Origin: a virus
Length of the DNA: 59,404 nt
Virus record (IMG/VR): IMGVR_UViG_3300043313_000821
Coordinates: 1 to 59,404 of that record
Direction: 5' to 3' (one strand)
Of the stretch, positions 8,660 to 55,793 are shown in pieces. Both the position numbers and the translations under genes were made by a program. The notes beneath the pieces were generated by a model, which saw nothing but the letters and a program-made list of their open reading frames with translations, was not told the origin of the DNA and ran no database searches. The number at the start of each line of letters is the position of its first letter. Positions within the stretch are counted from its first letter, which is position 1.

Positions 8660-9358
8660 GTGTCTCCCCCGTCTGTCGCGATCATCCTGACCCACAACCG
8701 GCCCGAACTACTCCAACGCTGCGTGTACGCGATCGCCCCACAGGTCGATAACGTGCTGATCATCGACAATGCTTCCGACCCACCCGTCGACAACGGCACC
8801 CCCGGAAACCGACGCTGGGGACACAACACATACGTAATCCACATCCCGGACCAGCCACCGAACCTGTCCGCCCTGTGGAACATCGGCCTACGGTGGGCGT
8901 GTGACGTCGTCTACCGGGACGACGTCGAAGACCCCACGTGGGATGTCGCGGTGCTGTGTGACGACGCGATCGTCCCTGATGGCTGGTTCCGGATCGTCGC
9001 TGACGGTATGCGGGCCCACAACGCGGCTGCAGCGTCAACGCATGGGATCACCCCGATCGCCTCCCCGATTGTGAAGACCGCCCCCGATTCCGACATCCGT
9101 AACCGGATGTGTTCGTGGGCGTTCGTCACCGCCGGGGAACGCAACATCCAAGCCGACGAACGCCTACATTTCTGGTGGGGCGACACAAGATTCGATTTTC
9201 AAGCGCGTGAGGCTGGCGGGATGGTTATCCTCCCCGGTCCTGTGGTAGTCAACGAGCGTCCCAATGATTTCTTGTACAGCGTTCCGGGCTTGGGCGAGCA
9301 GGCAGGCCGCGATACGGAGATGTTCACGGCAATCTACAACGGGTGGCGTCCGTGGTAG
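8660..9358 (+). CDS. GT-A fold glycosyltransferase (family 2-like) 1
   Basis: A 232-aa family-2-like glycosyltransferase. The GTG at 8660 is preceded by AGGAG at 8651-8655. The N-terminus VAIILTHNRPELLQRCV is the classic nucleotide-sugar binding start, followed by VLIIDNASDP and a metal-binding acidic motif in VAVLCDDAIVPDGWF. It is short for the family, with no membrane segment, so it is probably a soluble enzyme acting in the host cytoplasm. It is the first gene of the sugar cassette in the tail operon. The substrate cannot be read from the sequence. A virion protein acceptor is inferred from the position. Confidence 0.82.
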   Translation: MSPPSVAIILTHNRPELLQRCVYAIAPQVDNVLIIDNASDPPVDNGTPGNRRWGHNTYVIHIPDQPPNLSALWNIGLRWACDVVYRDDVEDPTWDVAVLCDDAIVPDGWFRIVADGMRAHNAAAASTHGITPIASPIVKTAPDSDIRNRMCSWAFVTAGERNIQADERLHFWWGDTRFDFQAREAGGMVILPGPVVVNERPNDFLYSVPGLGEQAGRDTEMFTAIYNGWRPW

Positions 9359-10017
9359 AAGAATGGGTAACTGTGCCGAGCCATCCCCTATATGAGGTAA
9401 GTAACCTAGGGCGCGTGCGGAGCAATCGACACAAAACGTCCAGAATTCTTACGCCGTACTACGGCAGCGACGGATACCTTAACATCAAACTAGGCAGAGG
9501 CTTCCAAACATCTATACATCGGCTTGTGTTGAGTTCGTTTTTTGCGCCCCCGCCGGGGGACGTGGAGTGCCGTCACCTTGACGGCAATCCCCATAACAAC
9601 CGGCTTGACAATCTGCGTTGGGGAACTAGGTCGGAGAACTATCATGACCGGCACGCCCACGGAACCGACAACAACGGCGAGCGTCACGGAAACGCGAAGC
9701 TAACCTCTGCTGCCGTTAGTGATATCCGAACCTCGACGTTATCCGACACGGAACTTGCTAGCATGTACGGCGTTACCCGATCCACGGTAAATGGTGCCCG
9801 TTCGGGTCGTTCGTGGCGTCATGAAAGCGGCGCGGTGGAAAGACCTGGGGTTCCGCGTGTGGGTGAGCGGAATGGGCGTGCTCGCTTGTGTGAGTCGCAG
9901 GTGATAGAGATCCGGAGTAGCGGGCTTTCTGACGTCGACCTAGCCGTAAGATTCGGCGTTTGCCGCCAAACGGTTAGCATGGCCCGCACCCGACAGACAT
10001 GGAGACATCTACCATGA
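9352..10017 (+). CDS. HNH homing endonuclease with NUMOD4 and HTH modules
   Basis: A free-standing homing endonuclease of about 221 aa. In order it has a NUMOD4 segment (EEWVTVPSHPLYEVSNLGRVRS), an HNH core (IHRLVLSSFF, then CRHLDGNPHNNRLDNLRWGT) and two C-terminal helix-turn-helix repeats (SDTELASMYGVTRSTVNGA and SDVDLAVRFGVCRQTVSMA). It overlaps the glycosyltransferase stop before it and the ATG after it. It is AT-richer than its neighbours, a sign of separate acquisition. GTG 9343 is an alternative start. It probably cuts a cognate site in genomes lacking it. Confidence 0.88.
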   Translation: MVEEWVTVPSHPLYEVSNLGRVRSNRHKTSRILTPYYGSDGYLNIKLGRGFQTSIHRLVLSSFFAPPPGDVECRHLDGNPHNNRLDNLRWGTRSENYHDRHAHGTDNNGERHGNAKLTSAAVSDIRTSTLSDTELASMYGVTRSTVNGARSGRSWRHESGAVERPGVPRVGERNGRARLCESQVIEIRSSGLSDVDLAVRFGVCRQTVSMARTRQTWRHLP

Positions 10018-10979
10018 CGCCGCGACGTGTGTTCGCGATCGCTACGGATTCGGCGGGGTGTTGGCATTACCGCCTGAACCTGCCGTTGACGCATTTGGAC
10101 CCGACAGAGTTTGAGGTGATTTGGGGTCCGCCGTCCCCGCCGGGTGGTGAACGTCTTCCGGGGGATGTGGTGATCGGGCAAAGGATCGTGGGCTACAACA
10201 CGGCGTGGCAGGAAATGTGTGCGGATCCTGGCCTGCTCGCTGTGTATGACCTGGACGATAATCTGCTCGACCTGGATCCGGCCAACCCCACGTTGTATTC
10301 CATTTTCATGCCGCAGGCAGACGAAACCCGCCGGAACATCGCGCTAGCTGATGTGGTGACGGTGTCAACGGCGGCGTTGGCGGAGTTCATCCGCCCGATC
10401 AACCCGAATGTCGTGATCCTGCCGAACTGTTCATCAGACGAATGGCTAACCCCAGTTACCGGATCGGTCCCTATCACTGTCGGGTGGGCTGGTTCTTTCT
10501 TCCACCACCAGGACTGGCCCGGCATCCCGCAGCAATTGGGGATCTATCAGAGCCGCGAACCGCGCGCTAAGTGGCACATGATCGGCGCGGACTACACAAG
10601 CGGCATGGTGTGGCCGCTGCTGATCGATGGCTGGTCAACGATTCCCGCGTACCTTAGGGCGTTGGATTTCACGATCGGCATCGCACCGTTGAACAGTTCG
10701 TCGTTCAATCGGTACAAATCGCACTGTAAGGTTCTGGAATACGCATCGCGGGGAATCGTGCCGGTAGCGTCACGGAACGCCGAATATCCGGAGTTCATCG
10801 AACACGGTGTTAACGGTCTGCTGGTCGACCGGATCGAGGACTGGCCGGATCACCTGGCAGCGTTGTCCGACGACACGCTCCGCGAAAAGATGGCCGCTGC
10901 AGCGCGGGCGACCGCCGAAACGTTCCACATCCGTAATCACATCCACCGGTGGGCAGCCACATACAGAGGTGAGTTTTAG
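10014..10979 (+). CDS. GT-B-like glycosyltransferase (family 4-like) A
   Basis: A 321-aa glycosyltransferase. The ATG at 10014 overlaps the HNH stop (ATGA) and has GGAGA 8-12 bases upstream. Motifs: N-terminal TDSAGCWHYRLNLP, VYDLDDNLLDLD, VTVSTAALAEFIRP, VGWAGSFFHHQDW and a C-terminal SHCKVLEYASRGIVPVAS with a donor-binding Glu. The same succession appears in the gene at 14966, so the two are paralogues. It probably transfers an activated sugar within the same pathway as gmd and the C-methyltransferase. Confidence 0.82.
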   Translation: MTPRRVFAIATDSAGCWHYRLNLPLTHLDPTEFEVIWGPPSPPGGERLPGDVVIGQRIVGYNTAWQEMCADPGLLAVYDLDDNLLDLDPANPTLYSIFMPQADETRRNIALADVVTVSTAALAEFIRPINPNVVILPNCSSDEWLTPVTGSVPITVGWAGSFFHHQDWPGIPQQLGIYQSREPRAKWHMIGADYTSGMVWPLLIDGWSTIPAYLRALDFTIGIAPLNSSSFNRYKSHCKVLEYASRGIVPVASRNAEYPEFIEHGVNGLLVDRIEDWPDHLAALSDDTLREKMAAAARATAETFHIRNHIHRWAATYRGEF

Positions 10980-12181
10980 TGCTACGCAAAACGTGTTCCG
11001 GGTGTGGGAGTACCAGCATCCGGCCGGTGCTGAACCTGGGTTCGTCGCCGTTGGCGGATGAGTTCCCTACGTCGCCGACGGAGTCGCAGACGCGGTATCC
11101 GTTGGGGTTGCAGCACTGCCCAGCCTGCACCATGATCCAACTGTCGTATGTGGTGCCCGACGAGGTTCTGTGGGGCGGCGAGTACGGGTTTTACACCGGC
11201 TCATCAGCTCAGGCTGTCGAATACTACCGGCAGTACGCGCAAACGATGCTTGCCAAATATGGGCGAGCGGCGCGGCGCGGCGTGATCGAGATCGCGTGTA
11301 ATGACGGCACCCTGTTACAACACTTCGCGGCTGTGCACATCCCGACCCTGGGTTGGGATCCCGCTGCCGGCCCCGTCGCTGCCGCGACCGGTAAAGGGCT
11401 GAATGTGGTTCACGCGCCGTTCACCGCCGCGACCGTAGCGGAGTATCAGCCTGAGCCGGCCGGGCTAGTCATCGCTAACCACGTCATCGCGCACGTGGCG
11501 GACCTCAACGATTTCGTTACCGCGCTCCGCAACGTGCTGCACCCTGATGGCGTTGCGGTGGTCGAGTTCCAGTACGGACCCGACCTGGTCGTCGGGAATG
11601 CTTTTGACCACGTCTATCACGAACACCGGTCGTTCCTGACCCTGTCCGCCCTGTCGGACATCCTGACACGGCATGACCTGATTGTCGTGTCAGCAGAACG
11701 GACCGAGCAGCAACGCGGGTCGCTGCGCGTCGCGATCGAACACCAACGCACAGGGACGTTCCCTGAACATTCAGTCCGTAACCTGATCCGCGCCGAGGAC
11801 TGGCTAACAGAACCAGACGCGTTGACCGCCCTGCAGCCGACCGCTGACCGGATCCGGATCCTGCTCGTTGAAGCGCTGGAAACCCTGCGGCTGCAGGGGA
11901 AAAAAGTTGCCGGCTACGGGGCGTCCGCGAAAGCAGCGACGCTACTGAACTGGTGCGGCATCAACGCTGACGACGTCGCGTATGTCGTGGACACGACACC
12001 CACAAAATGGGGCCGATACATTCCCGGCACCGACATACCGATCATCTCGCCAGCGTCGGATTCACGGCGCCCCGACGTGTACCTGCTGCTCGTATCAAAC
12101 TACCTGTCACACGTGGTGCGGAAAGAGGGCAAGTTTGAGGGCCGGTGGCTGGTGCCGATCCCGTATCCGGTGATGATCTGA
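10979..12181 (+). CDS. Sugar C-methyltransferase (NovU/EvaC/TylC3-like)
   Basis: A 400-aa SAM-dependent C-methyltransferase acting on NDP-4-keto-6-deoxysugars. The N-terminal zinc domain has C-x2-C (CSGCGS) and C-x2-C (CPAC) around LNLGSSPLADEF. The SAM motif is EIACNDGTLL. HVYHEHRSFLTLSAL carries the catalytic His region of the family. The C-terminal domain has GYGASAKAATLLNW. Length is normal (about 410). The GTG start shares one base with the TAG before it. With gmd next door it can C-methylate the 4-keto sugar intermediate. Confidence 0.88.
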   Translation: MLRKTCSGCGSTSIRPVLNLGSSPLADEFPTSPTESQTRYPLGLQHCPACTMIQLSYVVPDEVLWGGEYGFYTGSSAQAVEYYRQYAQTMLAKYGRAARRGVIEIACNDGTLLQHFAAVHIPTLGWDPAAGPVAAATGKGLNVVHAPFTAATVAEYQPEPAGLVIANHVIAHVADLNDFVTALRNVLHPDGVAVVEFQYGPDLVVGNAFDHVYHEHRSFLTLSALSDILTRHDLIVVSAERTEQQRGSLRVAIEHQRTGTFPEHSVRNLIRAEDWLTEPDALTALQPTADRIRILLVEALETLRLQGKKVAGYGASAKAATLLNWCGINADDVAYVVDTTPTKWGRYIPGTDIPIISPASDSRRPDVYLLLVSNYLSHVVRKEGKFEGRWLVPIPYPVMI

Positions 12182-13143
12182 TGCGGGCCCTGATCACCGG
12201 CGTCGCCGGTCAGGACGGGTTCTATCTCGCGCAGCAGTTGCTGAAAGACGGGCACCAGGTGTACGGCATGGTGCGGGGGCGCCCCGGGCCGGTCCGTGAC
12301 CAACTGCAGGATGAGCTACCCGACCTGCGGATCGTAGAAGGGGATCTACTCGACCAGTCAGGGCTACAAACCCTGGTCGGGCAGGTAGAACCAGATGTGA
12401 TCTATAACTTGGGTGCGTTGACGTTCGTTGGGATGTCGTGGTCTCAGCCGACGTTGATGTCAGAGGTTACCGGGTTGGGTGTCCTACGCCTGTTGGAGGC
12501 GGTTCGGGCCGTGAACGCGGGTATCCGGGTGGTGCATGCGTCGTCGTCGGAAATGTACGGCGCGGTTCGTGAAACACCGCAGGATGAGTTGACCCCGCTC
12601 AACCCTCGCTCACCGTATGGGGTCGCGAAAGCGTTCGCGCATCACACGTGTATCAACTATCGCGACTCGTACAACATGCACGTCAGTACCGCGATCATGT
12701 TCAACCACGAGTCACCCCGGCGGGGGTACGAGTTCGTGACCCAAAAAGTTGCCCGCGCCGCCGCGCAAGCGTCAAAGGTCAGCCCGCGCGCGCTGATCCT
12801 GAACTTAGGTGCGCTCGAACCACGCCGCGACTGGGGCTGGGCACCGGAATACATGGAAGCGTTGCCGTTGATCGCAGCCCAGTCGGATCCGTCCGACTTT
12901 TGCCTCGCAACGGGGGTCACGCATTCGGTACGCGAGTTGTGCGAAGTTGCGTACGGTTTGGTTGGGCTCGACTGGAAAGACCACGTCGTATCGAAACAAT
13001 CCCTGTACCGGCCTGCTGATGTGGATCTGCTGCAGGGCGACGCGCGGAAAGCGAAACGGGTCCTGGGTTGGGAACCAACGGTTACGTTCCATGAAATCAT
13101 TCTGCGGCTAGTGACGGCGAACCTGGAACGGCTCGCCCAGTGA
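12181..13143 (+). CDS. gmd: GDP-mannose 4,6-dehydratase
   Basis: A 320-aa short-chain dehydrogenase fold enzyme converting GDP-mannose to GDP-4-keto-6-deoxymannose with bound NADP. Motifs: nucleotide-binding TGVAGQDGFYLAQQL, NLGALTFVGMSW, active-site Thr/Ser and Glu region SSSEMYG, catalytic Y-x3-K in SPYGVAKA, and the GMD-specific NHESPRRGYEFVTQK. All key residues are present. It is slightly short of cellular enzymes. The ATG overlaps the previous stop by one base. It supplies substrate for the C-methyltransferase immediately upstream. Confidence 0.92.
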   Translation: MRALITGVAGQDGFYLAQQLLKDGHQVYGMVRGRPGPVRDQLQDELPDLRIVEGDLLDQSGLQTLVGQVEPDVIYNLGALTFVGMSWSQPTLMSEVTGLGVLRLLEAVRAVNAGIRVVHASSSEMYGAVRETPQDELTPLNPRSPYGVAKAFAHHTCINYRDSYNMHVSTAIMFNHESPRRGYEFVTQKVARAAAQASKVSPRALILNLGALEPRRDWGWAPEYMEALPLIAAQSDPSDFCLATGVTHSVRELCEVAYGLVGLDWKDHVVSKQSLYRPADVDLLQGDARKAKRVLGWEPTVTFHEIILRLVTANLERLAQ

Positions 13144-13811
13144 CCCCTACCCTGTCGATCGCTACCCCGACGTTCCCCGGCCGCGAAACCGAACTGTTAG
13201 AGCGGTGCATGCCGTCGGTCCGGGCCCTTGACTGGCCGGTCGTGGAACACGTCATTGTGTCGGACCGTAACCCTGACCTGCGGCACACCATGCGGTGGCT
13301 CCACACCTGGAACCGCGACAACCCGAACCGCCCGATCCGCTTCATAGAGATCAACGAAACGTGGCGGAACCCGACCACGGAACAGTCGACCGGTGGTGTG
13401 CCGTGGTTCCTGTCGTCATTCCTTGCGATGGGTGACTTTATCGGGTTCCTGGGCGACGACGACGAATTACTCCCCCACCACGCCCGCACGCATATCGAAG
13501 CGATGCAAGCCGCGAACGCCCTGTGGTCGGTGTCGCAGGTAGATTTCCGAGTGAACGGGGAACCCTATCTGGTCGTCGGTGACCCCAGTTACGACCTCGG
13601 ACACGTCGATACGACCGGTATCATGTGCTACAAAGACGCTCTCACCGTCGCCCGGTGGGATCCATGGACCGGCGAAAACGCCACCGACTGGCAGATGGTC
13701 CGTGACTGGCGTAACGCCGGCCTGATCGGAACGTTCATCCCGCAGATCACCGGCATACATCACGACGGGTGGGCCGCCGGGAAATCCGGGCGCCCCGACC
13801 GACCGAAGTAG
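13140..13811 (+). CDS. GT-A fold glycosyltransferase (family 2-like) 2
   Basis: A 223-aa protein starting at GTG 13140 (GTGA overlap with gmd). It has the family-2 N-terminus LSIATPTFPGRETELLERC and a metal-binding run GFLGDDDELLPHH at about residue 105. A Trp-rich C-terminal acceptor part follows (WDPWTGENATDWQMV). Soluble, with no membrane segment. Substrate unknown. Part of the cassette with gmd. Confidence 0.82.
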   Translation: MTPTLSIATPTFPGRETELLERCMPSVRALDWPVVEHVIVSDRNPDLRHTMRWLHTWNRDNPNRPIRFIEINETWRNPTTEQSTGGVPWFLSSFLAMGDFIGFLGDDDELLPHHARTHIEAMQAANALWSVSQVDFRVNGEPYLVVGDPSYDLGHVDTTGIMCYKDALTVARWDPWTGENATDWQMVRDWRNAGLIGTFIPQITGIHHDGWAAGKSGRPDRPK

Positions 13812-13816
13812 GAGAC

Positions 13817-14428
13817 ATGAACCCGCGCATTGCCGTTATCACCCCGTCCATTCCCCCGCGCGCGAAGATGCTACGCCGCGCCCTGTTCTCCGTTCACGCG
13901 CAAACCCTCCCCCCAGCAGCGCACAACATCGCCTACGACATCAACCGTGAGGGGGCGCCCGCAACACGTCAGCGGGCTCTCGACGCGGTCACCAGTGACA
14001 TTGAGTGGGTCGCCCCGCTTGATGATGATGACGAGTTCAAACCGTTCCACCTGGAAGCGTTGTACCGGCATGCGCAGGAAACCGGCGCGGACATGGTGTA
14101 TTCGTGGTTTGAGCTGATCGGGCAGGGTGGCCAGTCATACGGGGACGTTGACCCGATCTTCCCGGCAACGCATTTCACGAACCCGTTCAACCCGGATAAT
14201 CCGATCGAAACCACGATCACTGTGTTGGTTAGGGCGGAACTCGCTAAGCAGGTCGGGTACAAACGCCTGAACCGGGGTGAGGCGAACACCGGCGAGGACC
14301 GCTATTTCACCCTGGAATGCTTGGCTGCTGGGGCGAAGATTTCCCACCTGGTACAGCGCACTTGGAGATGGTCCCATCATGGGGGAAACACGTCCGGTCT
14401 AACAACTAAGGGCGATTGGCTTAGGTAA
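13817..14428 (+). CDS. GT-A fold glycosyltransferase (family 2-like) 3
   Basis: A 203-aa protein. The ATG at 13817 has GGAG at 13811-13814. N-terminal VITPSIPPRAKMLRRAL and a strong acidic run VAPLDDDDEFKPFHL match the donor and metal sites of family-2 enzymes. GEANTGEDRYFTLECLA resembles the catalytic base region. It is short for the family. An HNH gene follows directly downstream. Confidence 0.82.
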   Translation: MNPRIAVITPSIPPRAKMLRRALFSVHAQTLPPAAHNIAYDINREGAPATRQRALDAVTSDIEWVAPLDDDDEFKPFHLEALYRHAQETGADMVYSWFELIGQGGQSYGDVDPIFPATHFTNPFNPDNPIETTITVLVRAELAKQVGYKRLNRGEANTGEDRYFTLECLAAGAKISHLVQRTWRWSHHGGNTSGLTTKGDWLR

Positions 14429-14433
14429 CGGTT

Positions 14434-14949
14434 GTGGGCAAACGAATTATCGGCGATAACGTGAGGCGCTTGTTGTCCAAGCTTGACCAGACCGGCGGCG
14501 AGGATGCTTGCTGGATTTTTACGGGTGCTAAGAGCAGCCACGGTTATGGAAACTTTTATATGGGTGGAAGGTATATGAGCGCCCATCGGGCTGCATACCT
14601 GCTTTGGGTGGGTGAGATTCCGCGTTCTTTGGAGGTCGATCACGCCTGCCATGACGGTTTATCCTGTGCCGGCGGTTCCAAGTGTCCCCATCGACCTTGC
14701 GCTAACCCGCGTCATTTGCAGCTGTTGAGCCACCGAGACAACGACCTGAGGGGCTCCAGTTTCACGGCCGTCCATAGTCGTAAAACTCACTGCCCAGCAG
14801 GTCACGAGTTTAACGAGGAAAACACTTATACCCGCCCTGACAAGAAGAGTGCCAACGCGGTTAGCCGTGACTGTCGTAGGTGCAGGACTAAGGCTGAGGC
14901 GCGCCGTCGGGCTCGGGTTAAGGCTGCAGAGAAAACGGACATAACGTAA
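14434..14949 (+). CDS. HNH homing endonuclease, zinc-containing
   Basis: A 171-aa protein with N-terminal CWIFTGAKSSHGYGNF, the HNH core SLEVDHACHDG and CANPRHLQLLSHRDND with an internal C-x4-C pair, and a C-terminal zinc module (CPAGHEF ... DCRRCR). This is a common free-standing phage HNH type. The composition is AT-richer than the neighbouring glycosyltransferases. It starts at GTG 14434 and interrupts the sugar cassette, as the gene at 9352 does. Confidence 0.88.
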   Translation: MGKRIIGDNVRRLLSKLDQTGGEDACWIFTGAKSSHGYGNFYMGGRYMSAHRAAYLLWVGEIPRSLEVDHACHDGLSCAGGSKCPHRPCANPRHLQLLSHRDNDLRGSSFTAVHSRKTHCPAGHEFNEENTYTRPDKKSANAVSRDCRRCRTKAEARRRARVKAAEKTDIT

Positions 14950-14965
14950 CCATGTGGAGCATTCA

Positions 14966-16075
14966 GTGCGAATAGTGGCATATTGCGCAGATGTCTACGG
15001 ATGTGGATTCTATCGTATAATTCTCGCTGGTAATGCGTTGCGTGCTCAGGGTCACGATGTGGTCATCGTGCCGCCGGGCCCTGACACCGCATCGTATGGC
15101 GTGACGGGCGATATGCGCGACGACGTGATGGTTGATGCGCATGTGCCGCCGGGGACTGATGTGGTGGTTTTGCAGCGGGTGTCTCACCGCCGGTTGGCGA
15201 TGGCGATTCCGTTGTTACGCAAAAAGGGAATCTCTGTCGTCATCGACGTCGATGACGATTTGCAGCATATCCATCCGTCTAACCCTGCGTTCGCGATGCT
15301 GCACCCGAAGTCAGCTAACGAGTTCGCGTGGAAATATTGCTACGACGCTTGTCGGGATGCGTCTTTGGTGACGGTGTCGACACCGGCCCTGTTGGCGAGG
15401 TACGCGCCGCATGGCCGGGGGGCGGTGTTACCGAACTGTGTCCCTGAACTGTTTTTGGATATTCCGCGTGAGGATTCGGACCTGGTCGGGTGGGGTGGGT
15501 CTTTGCGGTCGCACCCTGATGATTTGCAGGTGATGGGTAACGCGGTCCGTCGGCATGGGGCGCCGTTTCATGTGGTGGGGCCGGCGGATGGGATCGCGGA
15601 TACGTTGGGTATACCGTCTGATCGGGTGGTTGCTACGGGGACGTTGCCTATCAACATGTGGCCGGTGGGGTTGTCTAAGCTGGGTGTCGGTTTGGCGCCT
15701 TTGTCCGATACGCGGTTTAACGCCGCCAAATCTCACTTGAAGTTGATCGAGCAATCTGGGCTCGGTGTCCCGTGGATCGCGTCGCCGCGTGTCGAGTACC
15801 AGAAGTTGCACGCCATACAGCCTGACGCGGGAATCCTTGCGGACACCCCGAACGACTGGCTGAAAGCCCTCCGTGCCTTGACGTCGGATCCTCGCCGCCG
15901 GCAGGACGCATCTGCCGCTGCCCGCCAGCTCGCCGCGAACTATCTGGTTGAGCGGAACGCTTGGCGGTGGGCTGAGGCGTGGGAGACGGCGTATCTCACT
16001 GACCACGCCGTACGGCCCGCGAGAGTGCCGCTGCTGGCGAAACCGGCCCGTTCCCCACTAGGACTACCCCTATGA
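14966..16075 (+). CDS. GT-B-like glycosyltransferase (family 4-like) B
   Basis: A 369-aa paralogue of the gene at 10014: VIDVDDDLQHIHPSNPAF, VTVSTPALLARYAP, VGWGGSLRSHPDDL and SHLKLIEQSGLGVPWIAS follow in the same order. The GTG at 14966 is chosen because GGAG (14956-14959) lies 6 bases upstream; GTG 14954 is an alternative. The first codons are AT-richer than the rest, as if the HNH insertion altered the 5' end. It is the last gene of the sugar cassette. Confidence 0.8.
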   Translation: MRIVAYCADVYGCGFYRIILAGNALRAQGHDVVIVPPGPDTASYGVTGDMRDDVMVDAHVPPGTDVVVLQRVSHRRLAMAIPLLRKKGISVVIDVDDDLQHIHPSNPAFAMLHPKSANEFAWKYCYDACRDASLVTVSTPALLARYAPHGRGAVLPNCVPELFLDIPREDSDLVGWGGSLRSHPDDLQVMGNAVRRHGAPFHVVGPADGIADTLGIPSDRVVATGTLPINMWPVGLSKLGVGLAPLSDTRFNAAKSHLKLIEQSGLGVPWIASPRVEYQKLHAIQPDAGILADTPNDWLKALRALTSDPRRRQDASAAARQLAANYLVERNAWRWAEAWETAYLTDHAVRPARVPLLAKPARSPLGLPL

Positions 16076-16813: not shown

Positions 16814-17059
16814 CTAGTGAGGTGCCACGTCGGCCCGTGTGACAGAGCCATTGGCGACGGTATCACGTGCCTCGCGGCAGTTCACGGCCATTCGGGCCAA
16901 GACTTGCGCTTTCGTCGGGGCTGCCCAGGTGTGCCAGCCGTGGCCAGGTACCCAGCGGGTGACGTGGTCCTTGCGGGTGTAGCCGCACCAGCGGCACCCC
17001 GTCGTGCGGGGCGTCCGGTGGTGCCGTATGCGAATGATGCTATAGGTGGGTGTAGTCAT
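16814..17059 (-). CDS. Small zinc-ribbon-like conserved protein
   Basis: An 81-aa protein with GCRWCGYTRKDH and VPGHGWHTWAAPT, a Cys/His/Trp pattern found in many small actinophage proteins of unknown role. The start at 17059 has GGGAAA upstream and lies inside the end of the previous leftward gene (20-base overlap). It is the last gene of the leftward block before the terminator. Confidence 0.68.
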   Translation of the reverse strand: MTTPTYSIIRIRHHRTPRTTGCRWCGYTRKDHVTRWVPGHGWHTWAAPTKAQVLARMAVNCREARDTVANGSVTRADVAPH

Positions 17060-17297
17060 CGGCGTTTTCCCTTGCGGTGACAACATAGTCAGCCCATGCG
17101 GGGTAGTCGGTTTCCGGGTTGGGGATTTCCCCGATCATGATTCCGCCGCGTACGCCAGAGACGCATACGATGTCGAGTTCGATGGCTTCCCTCATCAGCT
17201 GTTCGGCGGTGTTCCGGTTGCCGATGCGGTGGGCTAGGAACGACCGGTCGAGTAGTTCCAGGACGGTCGCGGTCCGCTGGGGTTGGTCAGTTCCCAT
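17040..17297 (-). CDS. Hypothetical protein
   Basis: An 85-aa acidic protein, TVLELLDRSFLAHRIGNRN followed by AEQLMREAIELDI. Function not recognised. The ATG at 17297 is chosen because it overlaps the end of the newly recognised gene 17287-17454 by 11 bases; the longer open frame upstream is the antisense shadow of that gene. Confidence 0.6.
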   Translation of the reverse strand: MGTDQPQRTATVLELLDRSFLAHRIGNRNTAEQLMREAIELDIVCVSGVRGGIMIGEIPNPETDYPAWADYVVTARENADDYTHL

Positions 17298-17454
17298 CGA
17301 TTCGGGCCCTGATTTCCTCGACGGTGGGGATCCCTGCGTGGGTGGTTTTGTTGTGGGGGTGGTCGGGTTGCCCGATGGGTTGCTTCCGGGTGTTGATGGA
17401 TTGGTCGGGGCCGGGGTCGGGGGCGTCGTCTTTGTGGGGTGGTGTTTTCGCCAT
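17287..17454 (-). CDS. Short hypothetical protein (55 aa)
   Basis: ATG at 17454, preceded by GGAGAATGA. The protein begins MAKTPPHKDDAPDPG and ends GIPTVEEIRARIDGN. Hydrophilic and Pro/Asp-rich, with a short helical C-terminus. It is short but has a good ribosome site, and its end overlaps the next start, so I take it as real. Function unknown. Confidence 0.6.
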   Translation of the reverse strand: MAKTPPHKDDAPDPGPDQSINTRKQPIGQPDHPHNKTTHAGIPTVEEIRARIDGN

Positions 17455-17493
17455 GATTCATTCTCCATTCTGGCTGTGGTCTGGCAGCCACTC

Positions 17494-17522
17494 CCCCGCC
17501 CAGCCGTGGGGGCTGGGCGGGG
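17494..17522. terminator. GC-rich hairpin between leftward genes
   Basis: CCCCGCCCAGCC and GGCTGGGCGGGG form a perfect 12-bp stem with a 5-base loop, just after the stop of the leftward gene 17532-17819. It may be a terminator or an attenuator, because genes continue in the same direction with no new promoter that I can see. Confidence 0.6.
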
Positions 17523-17531
17523 TGGAAGCGG

Positions 17532-17819
17532 TCAGAGTACGAGCTTGAACCCGAGCGTCAGAGCTGCCGCCACGGCCTGCATGTCGGTGACGGTGTCCTC
17601 GGGGAGGTGAACGGCGTTGGCGATGGTGTCGCTGGCTTCGGCGAGGATCAGCGCGAGGGCGGTCGCGGCGCCGGTCGACAGGCGAAGGGTGATCGTGTCG
17701 CCGTCGCGGGTGACCAGTTCGGGGTTGAGTTCCGCGCTGAGGTCGTCGATCCATGCGTCTTCCATGGTTGCGCGGTTGTAGGCTTCTTCGGCGTGGTCGC
17801 GCTGGTCGTCGATGTCCAC
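17532..17819 (-). CDS. Hypothetical acidic protein
   Basis: A 95-aa protein starting at GTG 17819 with AAAGGAG upstream. The N-terminal half is charged (DDQRDHAEEAYNRATMED), the C-terminal half Ala/Leu/Thr-rich and helical. Function unknown. It is the first gene after leftward promoter 1. Confidence 0.62.
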   Translation of the reverse strand: MDIDDQRDHAEEAYNRATMEDAWIDDLSAELNPELVTRDGDTITLRLSTGAATALALILAEASDTIANAVHLPEDTVTDMQAVAAALTLGFKLVL

Positions 17820-17854: not shown

Positions 17855-17885
17855 AGCATGACACACACTTGCGCCCTACGCAACC
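17855..17885 (-). promoter_or_regulatory. Leftward promoter 1 with overlapping operator
   Basis: On the minus strand, TTGCGT (-35, 17878-17883) and CATGCT (-10, 17855-17860) are 17 bases apart. The -35 box is one arm of TTGCG-CCCTA-CGCAA (17869-17883), the shared operator palindrome. The left arm is less extended than at the other three sites. It serves the gene starting at 17819. Confidence 0.72.
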
Positions 17886-17891
17886 CGTGGG

Positions 17892-18173
17892 TTAGTTGAC
17901 CTCATCGTCGGCCCACGTAAGCCGAACCTCGGCAACCTCACCCGTTTCGACACGCGACCGAGGGTTGAACGTGTACACCACCGGAGCCGCAAGGTAAGCA
18001 TCAACCGCCTCCCCCAAAAACCACTCATATCCGCCACGATCCAGCATCGCATATCGCTCCGCGCCCCGCGTAAAATAGTCATACGCAAGGTCCCACGCAT
18101 CGCACATCAGCGACCCCGGCAACCCCATATCCACCTCGGCGCAGTACGCCAGTTTCTCCCACAGCGTTTTCAT
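17892..18173 (-). CDS. Hypothetical protein
   Basis: A 93-aa protein starting MKTLWEKLAYCAEVDMG, rich in aromatic and acidic residues, with RLTWADDEV at the end. Its ATG overlaps the stop of the preceding gene by 4 bases. Not recognised. Confidence 0.6.
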   Translation of the reverse strand: MKTLWEKLAYCAEVDMGLPGSLMCDAWDLAYDYFTRGAERYAMLDRGGYEWFLGEAVDAYLAAPVVYTFNPRSRVETGEVAEVRLTWADDEVN

Positions 18174-18382
18174 TCGATCTCCGCTTCTAACACGTCAAGG
18201 ATGTCTGCCAGCGTCTGAGCGCTCATCTGAACCGTGGCGGGCTCGCCGCGAACAGGTGACGCGATGTAGTTCATCTGCCGCGCCCGGTCGATTACCTTTG
18301 CCGTCTCGGCCCTCATGTCAGCGCGCCGATCCTGTTCTGCCTGCTCTGCTTCGCGGCGCTTCCGCTGGTTGTCGTCCACCAT
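18170..18382 (-). CDS. Hypothetical coiled-coil protein
   Basis: A protein of about 70 aa dominated by charged helix (RKRREAEQAEQDRRADMRAE), probably a coiled coil, with an Ile/Leu-rich C-terminus. The start is uncertain: ATG 18382 is used, and TTG 18403 would add seven residues. Function unknown. Confidence 0.55.
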   Translation of the reverse strand: MVDDNQRKRREAEQAEQDRRADMRAETAKVIDRARQMNYIASPVRGEPATVQMSAQTLADILDVLEAEIE

Positions 18383-18418
18383 CGCCGCCGTCGGCTCGTA
18401 CAAGCCGAGTTTCGGCGC

Positions 18419-18721
18419 TCATTCGGTGGTTTCCTGTCGGGGGATGATGGCGGGCATGAGGTGTTCCAGTTCGCGGATCGCGTCGAGTGCGGCGAGGCGC
18501 GCTTGTGCTTCGCCGACGTCGTGTACTACGCCTCCGATGCCCCAGGGGATGGTTTTCTGCCGTGACAGGGGAATGTTGGGGTTCAGGTTTTCGATGGCGT
18601 CGATGAGTTGGCCGAGTGCGCGGTGGGCTTGGTTGAGGGCGCCGAGGGCGTTGAGGCGGTGTCGGGCGACCTCGTTACGGTGTGCGCGTTGGGCTAGTTG
18701 GTCTTCGGACTGCATGATCAT
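18419..18721 (-). CDS. Hypothetical helical protein
   Basis: A 100-aa, mainly helical protein (Ala, Leu, Arg, Gln-rich). The ATG at 18721 overlaps the stop of the HTH gene before it and has AAGGAG upstream. A second Met two codons later is possible. Function unknown. Confidence 0.62.
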   Translation of the reverse strand: MIMQSEDQLAQRAHRNEVARHRLNALGALNQAHRALGQLIDAIENLNPNIPLSRQKTIPWGIGGVVHDVGEAQARLAALDAIRELEHLMPAIIPRQETTE

Positions 18722-19263
18722 TTCTCCTTGGGGTTGCAGACGGAGCAGCGCTGGACGGCGGTCACGATCCGGCCGTCAGGGTTGCGTGTGTCGCCGGTGG
18801 CGATGACTCCCACACCCTGGCACCCGCAGCCCTGGACACGCGCCCACAGGACGTCTGAGAGAGCGAGCAGGGCCGCTGTGTGGCGGGGCGTGGGGTTGCC
18901 TCCCCGGGTCCACCGGTTGACCGTCTGGGGGGTGACTTTCAGGGCGGTCGCGATGTCGCGGGTAGTCATGTGCGCGGATCGTGCGTGCGCGAGGGCCGCG
19001 CGTACGGGGTCGCGGGGTTCGGGGCGCTCGATGTCGGGGATGGGGGGCAGCAGGATCGACGGGTCGGGGGTGGGGTTGTAGTAGGCGCGGACCATGGCGA
19101 GGAAATCCGTGGCGTCAACCTCGGTGCCGTGGCTGCGGGAAAACTCGTGCTGGTAGACGCCGGAGGAGAGGGTTTCGACGCGCCAGATGTCGGCTCCGGC
19201 GACGGTGTCGTGGGTGAGTGTGATGACGGCGGTTCCGACGTGTTCGCGGGTGATGGTCTTCAT
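18718..19263 (-). CDS. HTH DNA-binding protein with C-terminal cysteine motif
   Basis: A 181-aa protein. A helix-turn-helix at about residues 100-125 reads TTRDIATALKVTPQTVNRW, followed by TPRHTAALLALSD as in XRE-type regulators. The C-terminus has CGCQG and CSVC, a possible zinc site. The N-terminal 80 residues form an unrecognised beta-rich domain. It is first after leftward promoter 2 and has AGGAG before its ATG. Probably a regulator. Its target is unknown. Confidence 0.72.
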   Translation of the reverse strand: MKTITREHVGTAVITLTHDTVAGADIWRVETLSSGVYQHEFSRSHGTEVDATDFLAMVRAYYNPTPDPSILLPPIPDIERPEPRDPVRAALAHARSAHMTTRDIATALKVTPQTVNRWTRGGNPTPRHTAALLALSDVLWARVQGCGCQGVGVIATGDTRNPDGRIVTAVQRCSVCNPKEK

Positions 19264-19301
19264 CGGGGGTTCTCCTCGCGGGGGTTGTTGGGGCTGGGTT
19301 C

Positions 19302-19339
19302 AGCATACACCCCGGTTGCGTGAGACGCAACCGGGGTGT
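19302..19339 (-). promoter_or_regulatory. Leftward promoter 2 with extended operator palindrome
   Basis: Minus-strand TTGCGT (-35, 19325-19330) and TATGCT (-10, 19302-19307) are 17 bases apart. The operator GGTTGCG-TGAGA-CGCAACC (19314-19332) extends to a perfect 14-bp inverted repeat (19307-19320 and 19326-19339). In RNA this would also form a terminator-like hairpin behind gene 19346-19630. The same DNA may thus end one transcript and start the next. Confidence 0.8.
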
Positions 19340-19345
19340 GCTTGG

Positions 19346-19630
19346 TTACCGGCCCTGATCAATCCGGTACATCTGCTCATTCGCGAACTGGCGAACGCCA
19401 ACCGCCATCGATTCCAACGCCAACGCCCGCGCCGCCAAATCCTCCCACGCCGCCCGCTGGGCTTCCGGATACTGATCCGCCGGACGCGGCACCGGACGGT
19501 ACTGCCCATCTTCGCCCTTCGCGAACACCGTGCTGGCCACGTTCCACGCACTGACGGTGTACCGCGTCAGCCGGGCCATGTCGCGGAGGGTTTCGAGGAT
19601 GACGCGCCGGGGGTTTTTCTGCCGTGCCAT
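19346..19630 (-). CDS. Hypothetical protein
   Basis: A 94-aa protein with AAGGAG before the ATG at 19630. Basic N-terminus (MARQKNPRRVILETLRD), then Ala-rich helices and FANEQMYRIDQGR at the end. Function unknown. Confidence 0.62.
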   Translation of the reverse strand: MARQKNPRRVILETLRDMARLTRYTVSAWNVASTVFAKGEDGQYRPVPRPADQYPEAQRAAWEDLAARALALESMAVGVRQFANEQMYRIDQGR

Positions 19631-19682
19631 GACTGCTCCTTAGGGTTGGGGTCCTCATTAGTCGGGGCTGAGACTTTCCGGC

Positions 19683-19709
19683 TGGGGCCCCGCACATGTC
19701 GGGGCCCCA
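19683..19709. terminator. Hairpin between leftward genes
   Basis: TGGGGCCCC (19683-19691) and GGGGCCCCA (19701-19709) form a perfect 9-bp stem, located just after the stop of leftward gene 19720-19917. Terminator-like or an RNA processing or attenuation element. Confidence 0.55.
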
Positions 19710-19719
19710 CAGGCAAGGA

Positions 19720-19917
19720 TCAGAACATGCAGTCCGCTTCGGAACCCCACTCCGCCTCAACCTCAGCAGCGAGCGCGTCTTCATAGTTCCACTCGTACTC
19801 GCACTGTGCGCCGGTCGCGTCGTGCTGGTGCTGGGTGGGCCACCCCTGATACTTCAGGTCCGACCCGCAGACGGGGCACGTGTCGTGGCAGGAAATCGGG
19901 AGGGTCTTACGGCTCAT
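19720..19917 (-). CDS. Small zinc-finger-like protein
   Basis: A 65-aa protein, CHDTCPVCGSDLKYQGW with later Cys and His, consistent with a zinc ribbon. It ends EWGSEADCMF. AGGAG precedes the ATG at 19917. Similar short CPVCGS proteins are common in actinophages. Role unknown. Confidence 0.66.
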   Translation of the reverse strand: MSRKTLPISCHDTCPVCGSDLKYQGWPTQHQHDATGAQCEYEWNYEDALAAEVEAEWGSEADCMF

Positions 19918-19966
19918 CAGATTCTCCTCAGGTGGGGATGTTCGGGGTTGAACATCTTCGGCGCGG

Positions 19967-19982
19967 CCCGCCCGTGGGCGGG
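19967..19982. terminator. Short GC hairpin between leftward genes
   Basis: CCCGCCC and GGGCGGG with only GT between them, just downstream of leftward gene 19998-20315. A real RNA loop would open one or two pairs. Weak terminator or spacer hairpin. Confidence 0.4.
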
Positions 19983-19997
19983 TCTCACCGGAGCTGT

Positions 19998-20315
19998 TCA
20001 CCAGCCGATGTCGTCGGACTTGGCGGCGCGCTGTGCGGCGGTCGGGATGCGGGTGAGGCTGTTGTTCATTCCGATCCCGGCGGCGTGGTCCTCGGCGATC
20101 AGCTTTGCCATGTGCGTCGCGGCGCGGAGGCAAACGACGCCGCCGCACAGGATGCCGTCGTCGTCCATCATTTCGATGTAGAACGCGCTGGTGTCGCAGG
20201 TGGAGCAGCCGTGGCCGCAGCGGCCGTTGTTGGTGGCGATGAGGGGAAGTACGTCCTCATGGTTGAGGCTGGCGAGCCATTCGTTGCGGGCTTCGGGGGT
20301 GGTGTGGGTGGTCAT
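19998..20315 (-). CDS. Hypothetical cysteine-containing protein
   Basis: A 105-aa protein with CGHGCSTCD at about residues 33-41 and FYIEMMDDDG after it. The Cys cluster suggests a metal site. AAAGGAG precedes the ATG. Function unknown. Confidence 0.62.
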   Translation of the reverse strand: MTTHTTPEARNEWLASLNHEDVLPLIATNNGRCGHGCSTCDTSAFYIEMMDDDGILCGGVVCLRAATHMAKLIAEDHAAGIGMNNSLTRIPTAAQRAAKSDDIGW

Positions 20316-20389
20316 CGGTTTCTCCTTTGGGTTGGGGTTCTGAAGGGTTTCGGCTCAAATCCGGCGGGGCCGGATATGGCCGGAACTGT

Positions 20390-20524
20390 TCAGTAGTTGA
20401 CGCAGCAGCGGTAGTCGCCGCAGGGGGTGTTTTCGGGGCAGTCGTTCTGGGGGTTGTGGAAGTGTCCGCAGGTGTCGCAGTAGTCGGGGTCGATGTCGCT
20501 GTCGGGGGTGGTGTTGTCGTTCAT
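20390..20524 (-). CDS. Short cysteine-rich protein (44 aa)
   Basis: ATG at 20524 with AAAGGAG upstream. The protein reads DYCDTCGHFHNPQNDC in the middle and CGDYRCC near the end, a typical small zinc-binding phage peptide. It is the first gene after leftward promoter 3. Too short for standard length cut-offs but well supported by motif and ribosome site. Confidence 0.68.
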   Translation of the reverse strand: MNDNTTPDSDIDPDYCDTCGHFHNPQNDCPENTPCGDYRCCVNY

Positions 20525-20558
20525 CGGGGCTCCTTTGGCTTGTCTTGCTTACCCCTTA

Positions 20559-20589
20559 ATCATACCCCAGGTTGCGCTGAACGCAACCT
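20559..20589 (-). promoter_or_regulatory. Leftward promoter 3 with overlapping operator
   Basis: Minus-strand TTGCGT (-35, 20581-20586) and TATGAT (-10, 20559-20564, five of six consensus) are 16 bases apart. The operator GGTTGCG-CTGAA-CGCAACC (20570-20588) overlaps the -35 box and is flanked by matching A and T. Confidence 0.8.
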
Positions 20590-20612
20590 CTGGAACTGTC
20601 TGGTACACGACA

Positions 20613-20640
20613 GAACCCCCGGGCCTAAGCCTGGGGGTTC
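20613..20640. terminator. Intrinsic terminator of leftward gene 20651-20929
   Basis: GAACCCCC and GGGGGTTC enclose a continued GGGC/GCCT stem with one G-T pair and a CTAA loop. It lies 10 bases after the leftward stop and just before promoter 3, so it isolates the first leftward transcript from the second. Confidence 0.8.
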
Positions 20641-20650
20641 CGCCCAACAC

Positions 20651-20929
20651 CTACTCGCCAAACAACTTCACGCCCGGAATAGAAAGCAGACTCAACGCCG
20701 TAGTGAGTTCCTGACCCGTCGGGTACTCATCCTCGAACGAGTGCCAAACCCGCCACACCCGGTAAAGGTCCGGAAACGCGGTCGCGAGCTTCGCGCGGGT
20801 GTCTGCTCCGCCGACCTCGATCGCCCGGAGCAGGTGCAGTGGTAGAGACCATGCAGTGGTTGCTCCCAGGTAGGTTGCTAGTTCGTCGATCGAGCCGACG
20901 GGTTCGGTGCTGTCCGACATGCGGGGCAT
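20651..20929 (-). CDS. Hypothetical protein, first leftward gene
   Basis: A 92-aa protein with GGGAGA before the ATG at 20929. Helical, with HLLRAIEVGGADTRAKLATA and FPDLYRVWRVWHSFE. It is divergent from the HTH gene at 21015 and shares its control region, the place where phages often put an immunity or anti-repressor function. No motif seen. Confidence 0.62.
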   Translation of the reverse strand: MPRMSDSTEPVGSIDELATYLGATTAWSLPLHLLRAIEVGGADTRAKLATAFPDLYRVWRVWHSFEDEYPTGQELTTALSLLSIPGVKLFGE

Positions 20930-20964
20930 CTGGTGTCTCCCTGTGTAGTTGTGGTGTTGGGTCG

Positions 20965-21008
20965 ACCATACCCCGGGGTTGTGCCTGACGCAACCCTGGT
21001 GTTAGGGT
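20965..21008. promoter_or_regulatory. Divergent promoters (leftward 4 and rightward early) with shared operator
   Basis: Leftward: TTGCGT (20988-20993) and TATGGT (20965-20970) are 17 bases apart. Rightward: TTGTGC (20979-20984) and TAGGGT (21003-21008) are 18 apart, with the HTH start codon 6 bases after the -10 box. The operator GGGTTGTG-CCTGA-CGCAACCC (20976-20996) covers both -35 boxes, so one bound dimer would block both directions. Confidence 0.8.
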
Positions 21009-21014
21009 GGGCCC

Positions 21015-21248
21015 ATGACCAGAACCGAAAGGCGTAAGCACCTCGCCGCGCTCATCCGCGCAGCGATGGCCGAACACAACATCACTCAAGCCCAACTCGC
21101 GGAAATCTTCGGCGTGGACAAAGGCGTGATCTCGCGCCGCTGCCACGGTGAGTATTCGTGGGCGGCTGAGGATCTGCTGATCCTCGCGGACGTGTTCGGC
21201 GCACCAATCAGCATCCAACCCCCCGCCCTCGCTGCTGCTGGTGGATGA
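21015..21248 (+). CDS. Cro/CI-type HTH regulator
   Basis: A 77-aa single-domain DNA-binding protein. After a basic N-terminus, the helix-turn-helix reads ITQAQLAEIFGVDKGVISRRCHG at about residues 25-47. There is no cleavage or dimerisation domain, so it is Cro-sized. The ATG lies exactly where transcription from TAGGGT would begin, implying a leaderless mRNA. It is adjacent to one of four operator copies, so I infer that it binds GGTTGCG-N5-CGCAACC and controls itself and the leftward block. Confidence 0.8.
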   Translation: MTRTERRKHLAALIRAAMAEHNITQAQLAEIFGVDKGVISRRCHGEYSWAAEDLLILADVFGAPISIQPPALAAAGG

Positions 21249-27524: not shown

Positions 27525-27789
27525 AAAACTGAACGCGTTAAACCCTCTGGAACAAGCTGCCGCGTTGGCGTTACACCACCGGGCGGTCGGGATCGGCGTT
27601 GACCCTGTCACGTTGGAAGGGCCGGGCGTTGATTTCCTTCGCGACATCATGCCGTACCTCGGTTTGCGGCAGGGCAGGGTCAAACCGGGGGTGTGCCCCA
27701 CGTGCGATGGGCTGATCTCGATCACCCGTGCGTCGAACCCGCAGCCCGGCGACCACCGGCAGTATTGCTCTGCGGAGTGCACACCGTGA
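27517..27789 (+). CDS. Small zinc-ribbon-like protein
   Basis: A 90-aa protein with helical N-terminus and CPTCDGLISI ... YCSAEC, a four-Cys zinc site. It overlaps the upstream stop by 8 bases and the WhiB start (GTGA). Confidence 0.66.
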   Translation: MSRKLNALNPLEQAAALALHHRAVGIGVDPVTLEGPGVDFLRDIMPYLGLRQGRVKPGVCPTCDGLISITRASNPQPGDHRQYCSAECTP

Positions 27790-28415
27790 CCACGGTCTAC
27801 GATCCGCGTGCGTGGGCGTGGCAGGAACACGCCGGGTGCCGTGGCTGGCCGACGCCGGAAGATTTCACGACCGCTGACCCATACCGGCTCACTGCCGGGA
27901 ACCGGGCCGCGTTGCTGCAGTGCCGCACCAGGTGTCCGGTACGGGCGGAGTGTTTCGCGGCGACTCAGGCGAAACCGAAGCTGGAACGGAAAAGCATCGT
28001 CGCGGGCGGAAGGTTGTGGTCCGTGGGTGGGCAACCGCTGTCAGCCACACCGCCGCAGCTACCGGCGTTGACGGGGCCGCCGCTACGTCCCCGCAGCCCC
28101 CACGGGTCGCCGTCCGCGTACCGGCGTCACCAAAAGAACAAAGAACCGATCTGCGATGTTTGTCAGGAAGGGCATACAGCGCGGCGTCTTGACCGCGTGC
28201 GGGGAGGTGTGGCGCCGGACCTGATCGAGAAGATGCCCGCGATGCTCGCTGCACGTCGTGCAGCCTTAAGCGTGGGTCGGCGTGTCGCGGCGCAGCAGAT
28301 AGGGACCAGCGTCACGAGTCTGTATCTGTTTGAGACGGGGCAGCGGATCCCGTTGCAAAGCATCCTCCAAAAAATGATCAACTGGTTGCAGCCCGAACTG
28401 GAGAAACCCCGATGA
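27786..28415 (+). CDS. WhiB-like protein fused to a C-terminal HTH-like domain
   Basis: A 209-aa protein. The N-terminal 80 residues carry the WhiB iron-sulfur cysteine pattern: C in HAGCRGW, then CRTRC and AEC (C ... C-x3-C-x5-C). GlyGly follows (SIVAGG), although the canonical GVWGG turn is altered. A central AYRRHQKNKEPICDVCQEGH adds two Cys. The C-terminus RRVAAQQIGTSVTSLYLFETGQ looks like a helix-turn-helix. WhiB proteins are known only from actinobacteria and their phages. Probably a transcription regulator. Confidence 0.78.
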   Translation: MTTVYDPRAWAWQEHAGCRGWPTPEDFTTADPYRLTAGNRAALLQCRTRCPVRAECFAATQAKPKLERKSIVAGGRLWSVGGQPLSATPPQLPALTGPPLRPRSPHGSPSAYRRHQKNKEPICDVCQEGHTARRLDRVRGGVAPDLIEKMPAMLAARRAALSVGRRVAAQQIGTSVTSLYLFETGQRIPLQSILQKMINWLQPELEKPR

Positions 28416-34539: not shown

Positions 34540-34622
34540 GAGTGTGTAGCTCAGGGGTAGAGCACCTGATCGGCCGGCCAGCCATCGATCAGGGGGTCGG
34601 CGGTTCGAATCCGCCCACGTTC
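34540..34622 (+). tRNA. tRNA-like element 2 with enlarged anticodon loop
   Basis: Acceptor GAGTGTG/CACGTTC (with two G-T pairs), D arm GCTC-AGGGGTA-GAGC, T arm GGCGG-TTCGAAT-CCGCC. The anticodon region has an 8-bp stem CCTGATCG/CGATCAGG (34565-34572 and 34586-34593) closing a 13-base loop in place of 5 bp and 7 bases. Without a 7-base loop the anticodon cannot be read. Confidence 0.6.
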
Positions 34623-34717
34623 CCGCAGATCCGGGGTCGGTGCAGACGCGAACAGCCGGAACCTTCCGGTAAGGCGGTTCAGCGGGCCGGATGCAGAAAA
34701 CCCGACACAGCACAAAA

Positions 34718-55127: not shown

Positions 55128-55793
55128 ATGTCGACGTTCACTCGGTGCTACTCCCCTATCCGGGGGCGCGTGGTCCGTATCACGCTCCTCAATTCGTGCG
55201 GTGCGACGGTCACGGGCGCGTCGTCGGCGCAGATCACGACCGGCGGGTTCACTCAGGTCGCGCAGACCGCGCAGTACGACACCGGCGCGGAGCACATCAC
55301 CCGCCGTGCTGACGCGCAGCTGTGTGTCAACGAGAAAGACCCCGACTATTTGAAGCGTCTCCAGCTGACGTTTGACCTGTGCTCGATCAACCCGGGAATT
55401 ATCGCGAACACTGTCGCGGGTGCGCGCCTGCTGACATATTCGCAGTCCCCGACGGGTACCGGTTTCGCGATCGGCACTCAGGGCACCCCGCCACATTTCA
55501 GCCTTGAGGTGTGGCAGGACGTAGCCGGGCAGGCTTGCGACTCTTCCGGTAACCCGCTGTACGTGTACAACGCGTGGCCGAACCTCGCGAACGGGAAGAT
55601 CGGTGACTACAACATCGGTCTTGACCCGTCAGCGTTGCAGATCATCGCGGAGTCGTTCCCCGTATGGCCCGGCTGGACAACCGGTAACAGCTGGCTCGGA
55701 TCCGGCGCTGTCCAGGCCATCCCCGACCACTGGTTCCAGAACCTGACATCCACAGCACCACCAGCAGAATCGTGCACCATCATCACGATCTAA
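55128..55793 (+). CDS. Major tail (tube) protein
   Basis: A 221-aa protein. Tail-tube-like features: N-terminal FTRCYSPIRGRVVRIT, FSLEVWQDVAGQAC and GKIGDYNIGLDPSALQIIAESF, a pattern I associate with actinophage tail tubes. Size is right. Its position after the capsid, far from the tail chaperones, is only apparent on the linear map: circularly, head and tail genes are continuous. Confidence 0.75.
   Translation: MSTFTRCYSPIRGRVVRITLLNSCGATVTGASSAQITTGGFTQVAQTAQYDTGAEHITRRADAQLCVNEKDPDYLKRLQLTFDLCSINPGIIANTVAGARLLTYSQSPTGTGFAIGTQGTPPHFSLEVWQDVAGQACDSSGNPLYVYNAWPNLANGKIGDYNIGLDPSALQIIAESFPVWPGWTTGNSWLGSGAVQAIPDHWFQNLTSTAPPAESCTIITI

Follow-up and report, generated by a model that had tools for sequence, protein, structure and literature searches.

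What reads the short palindrome that recurs ahead of several leftward genes in an uncultured soil bacteriophage? The phage is represented by the record IMGVR_UViG_3300043313_000821, whose full stretch of 59,404 bases is referred to here as the window. The palindrome TTG(C/T)G-N5-CGCAA is present at four sites in the entire 59.4 kb, S1 to S4 (17869, 19316, 20572 and 20979), each of which overlaps a predicted leftward promoter; S4 also lies ahead of a gene for a Cro/C1-type helix-turn-helix (HTH) protein of 77 amino acids (aa). We consider it probable that the four palindromes are operators for this protein of the phage's own, acting as a repressor, whatever the life style of the phage.

The pattern TTGYGN5CGCAA gave seven strand matches, corresponding to the four sites, against 0.42 expected (standard deviation 0.81, 100 dinucleotide shuffles). 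None of the 100 shuffles reached seven, the maximum being four, and the reversed control pattern had no match in the window. When two mismatches were allowed there was no excess (87 observed versus 117 expected in the window), and therefore the operator signal is limited to the four sites. Their 15-bp sequences are TTGCGCCCTACGCAA (S1, 17869-17883), TTGCGTGAGACGCAA (S2, 19316-19330), TTGCGCTGAACGCAA (S3, 20572-20586) and TTGTGCCTGACGCAA (S4, 20979-20993). S2 is the longest palindrome, extending to 13-bp arms, and S1 is the weakest site of the window. A preliminary description of this locus had reported four recurring units, and all of them were found again. It had given the half-site as TTGCG or TTGTG, and the palindromes are indeed there, but TTGTG occurs in S4 only; its longer consensus GGTTGCGN5CGCAACC holds in part, since S1 (right arm CGCAAGT) and S4 (one C-to-T change) deviate from it. 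To call the regulon "mapped", as it did, was too strong for sites that are known here from sequence alone.

Each palindrome falls on promoter-like elements. On the minus strand, S1 (17855-17885) has the -35 box TTGCGT at 17878-17883 and the -10 box CATGCT at 17855-17860, with a spacer of 17 nucleotides (nt); S2 (19302-19338) has TTGCGT at 19325-19330 and TATGCT at 19302-19307, also 17 nt apart; and S3 (20559-20589) has TTGCGT at 20581-20586 and TATGAT at 20559-20564, with 16 nt between them. The S4 operator sits inside two divergent promoters, both within 20965-21008, and each of its arms supplies one -35 box: the leftward promoter (minus strand) combines a -35 at 20988-20993 with TATGGT at 20965-20970 (17-nt spacer), and the rightward one (plus strand) combines TTGTGC at 20979-20984 with TAGGGT at 21003-21008 (18-nt spacer). 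The leftward boxes with their distances of 16-17 bases, and the overlap of the fourth site with the -35 box of the HTH gene promoter, thus agree with what had been described. Leftward start codons lie about 29-39 nt past the -10 boxes and are preceded by the Shine-Dalgarno sequences AAAGGAG, GAGGAG, AAAGGAG and GGGAGA.

The arrangement is kept in a second phage. Among 2.9 million viral contigs scanned for GGTTGCGT-N4-CGCAACC, a single one had several of these sites at promoters: IMGVR_UViG_3300025909_000009 (L049, 57 kb). Where pieces of the region align, its DNA is 65-78% identical to that of the window. The whole L049 record contains TTGCG-N5-CGCAA in exact form just four times, once ahead of each corresponding leftward unit, and the fourth, at 4804, is also ahead of its HTH gene and shows the same two-way arrangement of divergent promoters; the operator shared by four leftward promoters and the HTH promoter, as proposed earlier for the window, is therefore conserved as a set. 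All eight sites have GGTTGCGT-N4-C(G/A)CAA in common, and the outer arms vary between sites and between phages, from almost none at S1 of the window to about 12 bp at S1 of L049. As far as the aligned sites tell, this fixed core with free flanks fits what an operator should look like. In L049, S1 is a full palindrome with the -10 box TATGCT, and S3 has a 16-nt spacer. When a matrix was built from the four sites in either genome and applied to the other, the top seven hits in the window and the top eight in L049 were the four sites of each. A de novo palindrome count returned the operator motif alone in L049; for the window it listed nothing, because S4 is imperfect (TTGTG).

The -10 elements are similarly constrained. 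In seven of the eight sites TANNNT stands 16-17 nt from TTGCGT. Among random positions of the region, 0.7% have it at 16-18 nt, a null that is mostly coding DNA and is compared with sites that are not independent, so that a formal probability should not be taken literally. A rightward -10 box is present at S4 only, in both phages, precisely at the start of the HTH gene; it ends 6 nt before the ATG, with no Shine-Dalgarno sequence in either, and the HTH mRNA is predicted to be leaderless in both.

Beyond L049, no relative was found in viral contigs with the 77-aa protein alone, a two-row HTH profile, RecT or the profile of a 181-aa HTH protein encoded downstream of S2; the latter profile had no relative in bacterial genomes either, and a DNA megablast of 24 kb against known phages gave no match. 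A search with a head-module protein revealed two more distant relatives, neither of them with the HTH protein or exact sites. One of these is a 26-kb fragment, and only the other, G003 (59 kb), counts; that protein and sites are missing together there speaks for the proposed pairing of the two. Apart from this group, the unrelated viral contig L150 has TTGCG-N5-CGCAA at 1560, 7789 and 9565 beside TAAAAT-like boxes, possibly another multi-operator phage regulon, and viral contig L023 contains five such palindromes in tandem array (5293-5416).

The 77-aa gene (21015-21248, plus strand) is the first of a rightward block that includes RecE/RecT-like genes. Its earlier designation as a Cro-like HTH gene was borne out, the product being of Cro/C1 type: it scores above the cut-off for PF01381 (HTH_3; 33.4 versus 23 bits) and matches phrog_4583, a transcriptional repressor (4.3e-11). 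In the AlphaFold model (mean predicted local distance difference test score 82.6) the protein has an all-helical HTH fold, with four helices (3-21, 25-32, 36-43 and 51-61) and a disordered tail. The Foldseek neighbours of this model in the PDB are the DNA-binding domains of C.BclI, C. glutamicum ClgR and BldD, with modest scores (best E 0.006). The protein is 61% identical in L049, and among known phages it matches only gp47 of Mycobacterium phage JustASigh (42%), a protein in the cro position with an annotated immunity repressor opposite. The recognition helix carries the motif ISRR. A dyad-symmetric candidate operator lies over the promoter of the HTH gene itself in two phages.

What was observed directly is the four sites with their spacing and conservation, and the family to which the HTH protein belongs; promoter activity, binding by the 77-aa protein, repression and timing are what we infer. 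A dimer of the protein would bind GGTTGCG-N5-CGCAACC and cover the -35 box, which would block RNA polymerase at the four leftward promoters and silence four transcription units with 12-13 small genes in all. Because each arm of S4 holds the -35 box of one of the divergent promoters, one binding event there would serve both directions, shutting the nearest leftward unit and limiting the leaderless mRNA of the HTH protein itself. In such a Cro-like role, the protein would end leftward early transcription during lytic growth.

Several points weigh against this explanation. Operator binding and transcription are predicted from sequence, and conservation, as judged from the genomes compared, rests on two of them, with one relative found to have the system. 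In the window, S1 has a poor -10 box (CATGCT) and an imperfect right arm. A scan with the sigma-70 consensus, which is that of E. coli, found no promoter here, because the -35 and -10 boxes depart from it. No such operator was seen in JustASigh, despite its HTH protein. One argument in its favour carries a reservation: in unrelated viral contigs, palindromes of this form lay within 100 bp of Cro/C1-type HTH genes at six loci, among the matches listed, versus 1.35 expected, and several of these loci have an ISR/ISK recognition-helix motif like the ISRR of the 77-aa protein, but the contig set was chosen by palindrome and two of the six loci are related to each other; the looser operator-plus-promoter pattern, whose matches in viral contigs are mostly due to chance, was used for this adjacency test only. 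Moreover, the 181-aa protein of the S2 unit is another conserved HTH protein that could be the binder.

If the 77-aa protein does bind the operators, its role depends on the life style of the phage. The protein maps of the window and L049 are collinear but circularly permuted, the ends of each contig falling inside the other, and thus both genomes are probably complete. A Pfam search found no tyrosine integrase, serine recombinase or ParA-type ATPase (PF00589, PF00239 and PF13614) in either of them; in the window there is no second HTH_3 protein over the cut-off, and no CI partner was recognised. Together with an HTH gene that heads a RecE/RecT-like block, this favours Cro-type timing in the lytic cycle, which appears likelier than prophage immunity. 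We tentatively propose, as a possibility that falls somewhat short of even chances, that a phage which has no lysogeny genes retains a solitary Cro-type repressor that limits itself and would time lytic growth by shutting four early operons at once. It would be a Cro without a CI, kept throughout a divergent group of phages. It is rather doubtful that the protein, while binding the same operators, instead maintains immunity as the repressor of a temperate or plasmid-like prophage that went unrecognised. A small autoregulated repressor at a divergent control point would suit such a role, as would the fact that the window has no other HTH_3 candidate above the cut-off; however, neither genome has an integrase or ParA match, and the gene stands at the head of a compact rightward block with RecE/RecT-like genes. 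As this is a variant of the explanation by the 77-aa repressor, the probabilities of the two overlap.

The preliminary description had counted 13 leftward genes, and 12-13 small genes do lie downstream of the four sites, all on the minus strand and almost all without a known family. The S4 unit has a sole gene (20651-20929), whose 92-aa product is 48% identical in L049 and has no family match. Between it and the S3 promoter lies a hairpin (20609-20644, minus strand, z -3.66) with a counterpart at the same place in L049 (z -4.76), a probable terminator. The S3 unit (19346-20524) comprises genes for 44 aa (20390-20524), 105 aa (19998-20315), 65 aa (19720-19917) and 94 aa (19346-19630), with no family over the cut-off. 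The S2 unit (17892-19263) starts with the 181-aa HTH/Cys-rich protein (18718-19263), followed by 100-, 77- and 93-aa genes, and the S1 unit (16814-17819) has genes for 95 aa (17532-17819), 55 aa (17287-17454) and 85 aa (17040-17297) and possibly a further one within 16814-17086, and so three or four genes.

The operators could be bound by the 181-aa protein, which would then be the leftward autoregulator, and the 77-aa protein would act elsewhere. The 181-aa protein has weak HTH matches (PF13384, 3.4e-5; PF01381, 9e-4) and is 67% identical in L049, and the promoter of its own gene, S2, bears the longest palindrome. However, both matches are below the Pfam cut-offs, the 77-aa gene has its promoter exactly under S4, and palindromes as short as these are usually bound by small Cro/C1 proteins, which makes this alternative improbable. 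Phages can also borrow host regulators, and the palindromes might be sites for one of these, exploited by the phage for promoter timing; ClgR and BldD of actinobacteria, which are small Xre-type regulators, are structural neighbours of the 77-aa fold. This is very improbable, given that the sites are tightly clustered in one block round the phage's own HTH gene and that sites and HTH gene are both absent from G003.

As RNA, S2 would form a strong hairpin just past the stop codon of the upstream gene (z -6.6), as do S1 and S2 of L049 (z -5.3 and -6.7), and judging from these folds the hairpins of S2 in both phages and of S1 in L049 may help to end the preceding unit. That the palindromes are mainly such hairpins, very stable terminators placed after a stop codon and ahead of the following promoter rather than operators, is scarcely credible, and a function as terminators only was rejected: S1 of the window folds into no such hairpin (z -0.5), no T-run follows the palindromes, conservation lies in the core and its spacing from the -10 box, not in stem length, and the S4-to-S3 gap has a separate hairpin of its own.

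Operators for the 77-aa repressor would have parallels in known phages. In lambda-type Cro/CI systems, a small HTH_3 protein acts at a palindromic operator over two divergent promoters and is autoregulated, features that the present locus appears to share. It differs in having one operator at the divergent region, compared with three in lambda, and in carrying three more at promoters further along the leftward block. A lambda-like cI/cro bistable switch was rejected, as the divergent neighbour is the 92-aa protein without a family match and neither a CI partner nor an integrase was found.

Cro of the telomere phage PY54 is a small lytic repressor with a short palindrome and a leaderless cro mRNA; it has just one operator and is not believed to repress its own production (PMC4488713), whereas here there are four, one of them over the gene's own promoter. 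The repressor gp33 of mycobacteriophage BPs binds five regions and regulates four promoters (PMC4557955), another case of one phage repressor at several promoters, but its full operator consists of two half-sites, one a 12-bp palindrome, it acts as a tetramer, immunity is integration-dependent and the sites are genome-wide (PMC4557955). Cluster O phages such as Corndog have a repeated perfect palindrome, divergent promoters with predicted leaderless mRNAs, several leftward promoters and no integrase (PMC4351075). The likeness is superficial and was rejected, since most of the 34 copies of TGTTCGG-N3-CCGAACA in Corndog lie off promoters (PMC4351075) and every copy here is on one. The L5-type stoperators of Cluster A mycobacteriophages, also several repressor sites in one actinophage genome, are asymmetric and numerous and stop elongation (PMC6550527, PMC9283540); this system too was rejected, as the four sites here are symmetric and all at promoter -35 boxes. 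The proposed regulon is a well-made but ordinary phage control circuit, of the known kind in which a phage repressor has several operators.

Its interest lies in being a compact and fully predicted regulon, with operator, promoters, regulator and targets, in an uncultured phage group without a close DNA match in the phage records that were searched. Moreover, it brings together 12-13 small genes that otherwise lack annotation as a co-regulated set, a clue to what they do, and it offers a clean case for asking what purpose a Cro-like repressor serves in a phage seemingly without a prophage state.

Other features of the window were noted. A 209-aa protein (27786-28415) has weak WhiB and HTH_31 matches, both below the cut-off, and is a possible further regulator. 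Downstream of the tail genes, 8660-16075 holds a cluster of genes that resemble, as judged by eye, glycosyltransferases and a sugar-nucleotide dehydratase, mostly 66-81% identical in L049, with only 41% for the gene at 12145-13143. A tRNA-like gene with an undetermined anticodon was reported by ARAGORN at 34540-34624. A Mu F-like head protein, a below-cut-off match to intein splicing (168-459) and a 2'-5' RNA ligase-like domain are combined in the 1721-aa open frame at 45452-50617, whose L049 copy aligns in part only. Finally, a 207-aa head-module protein (55170-55793) is 95% identical to that of L049, versus 79-87% for its neighbours, which may reflect either recent exchange or strong constraint.

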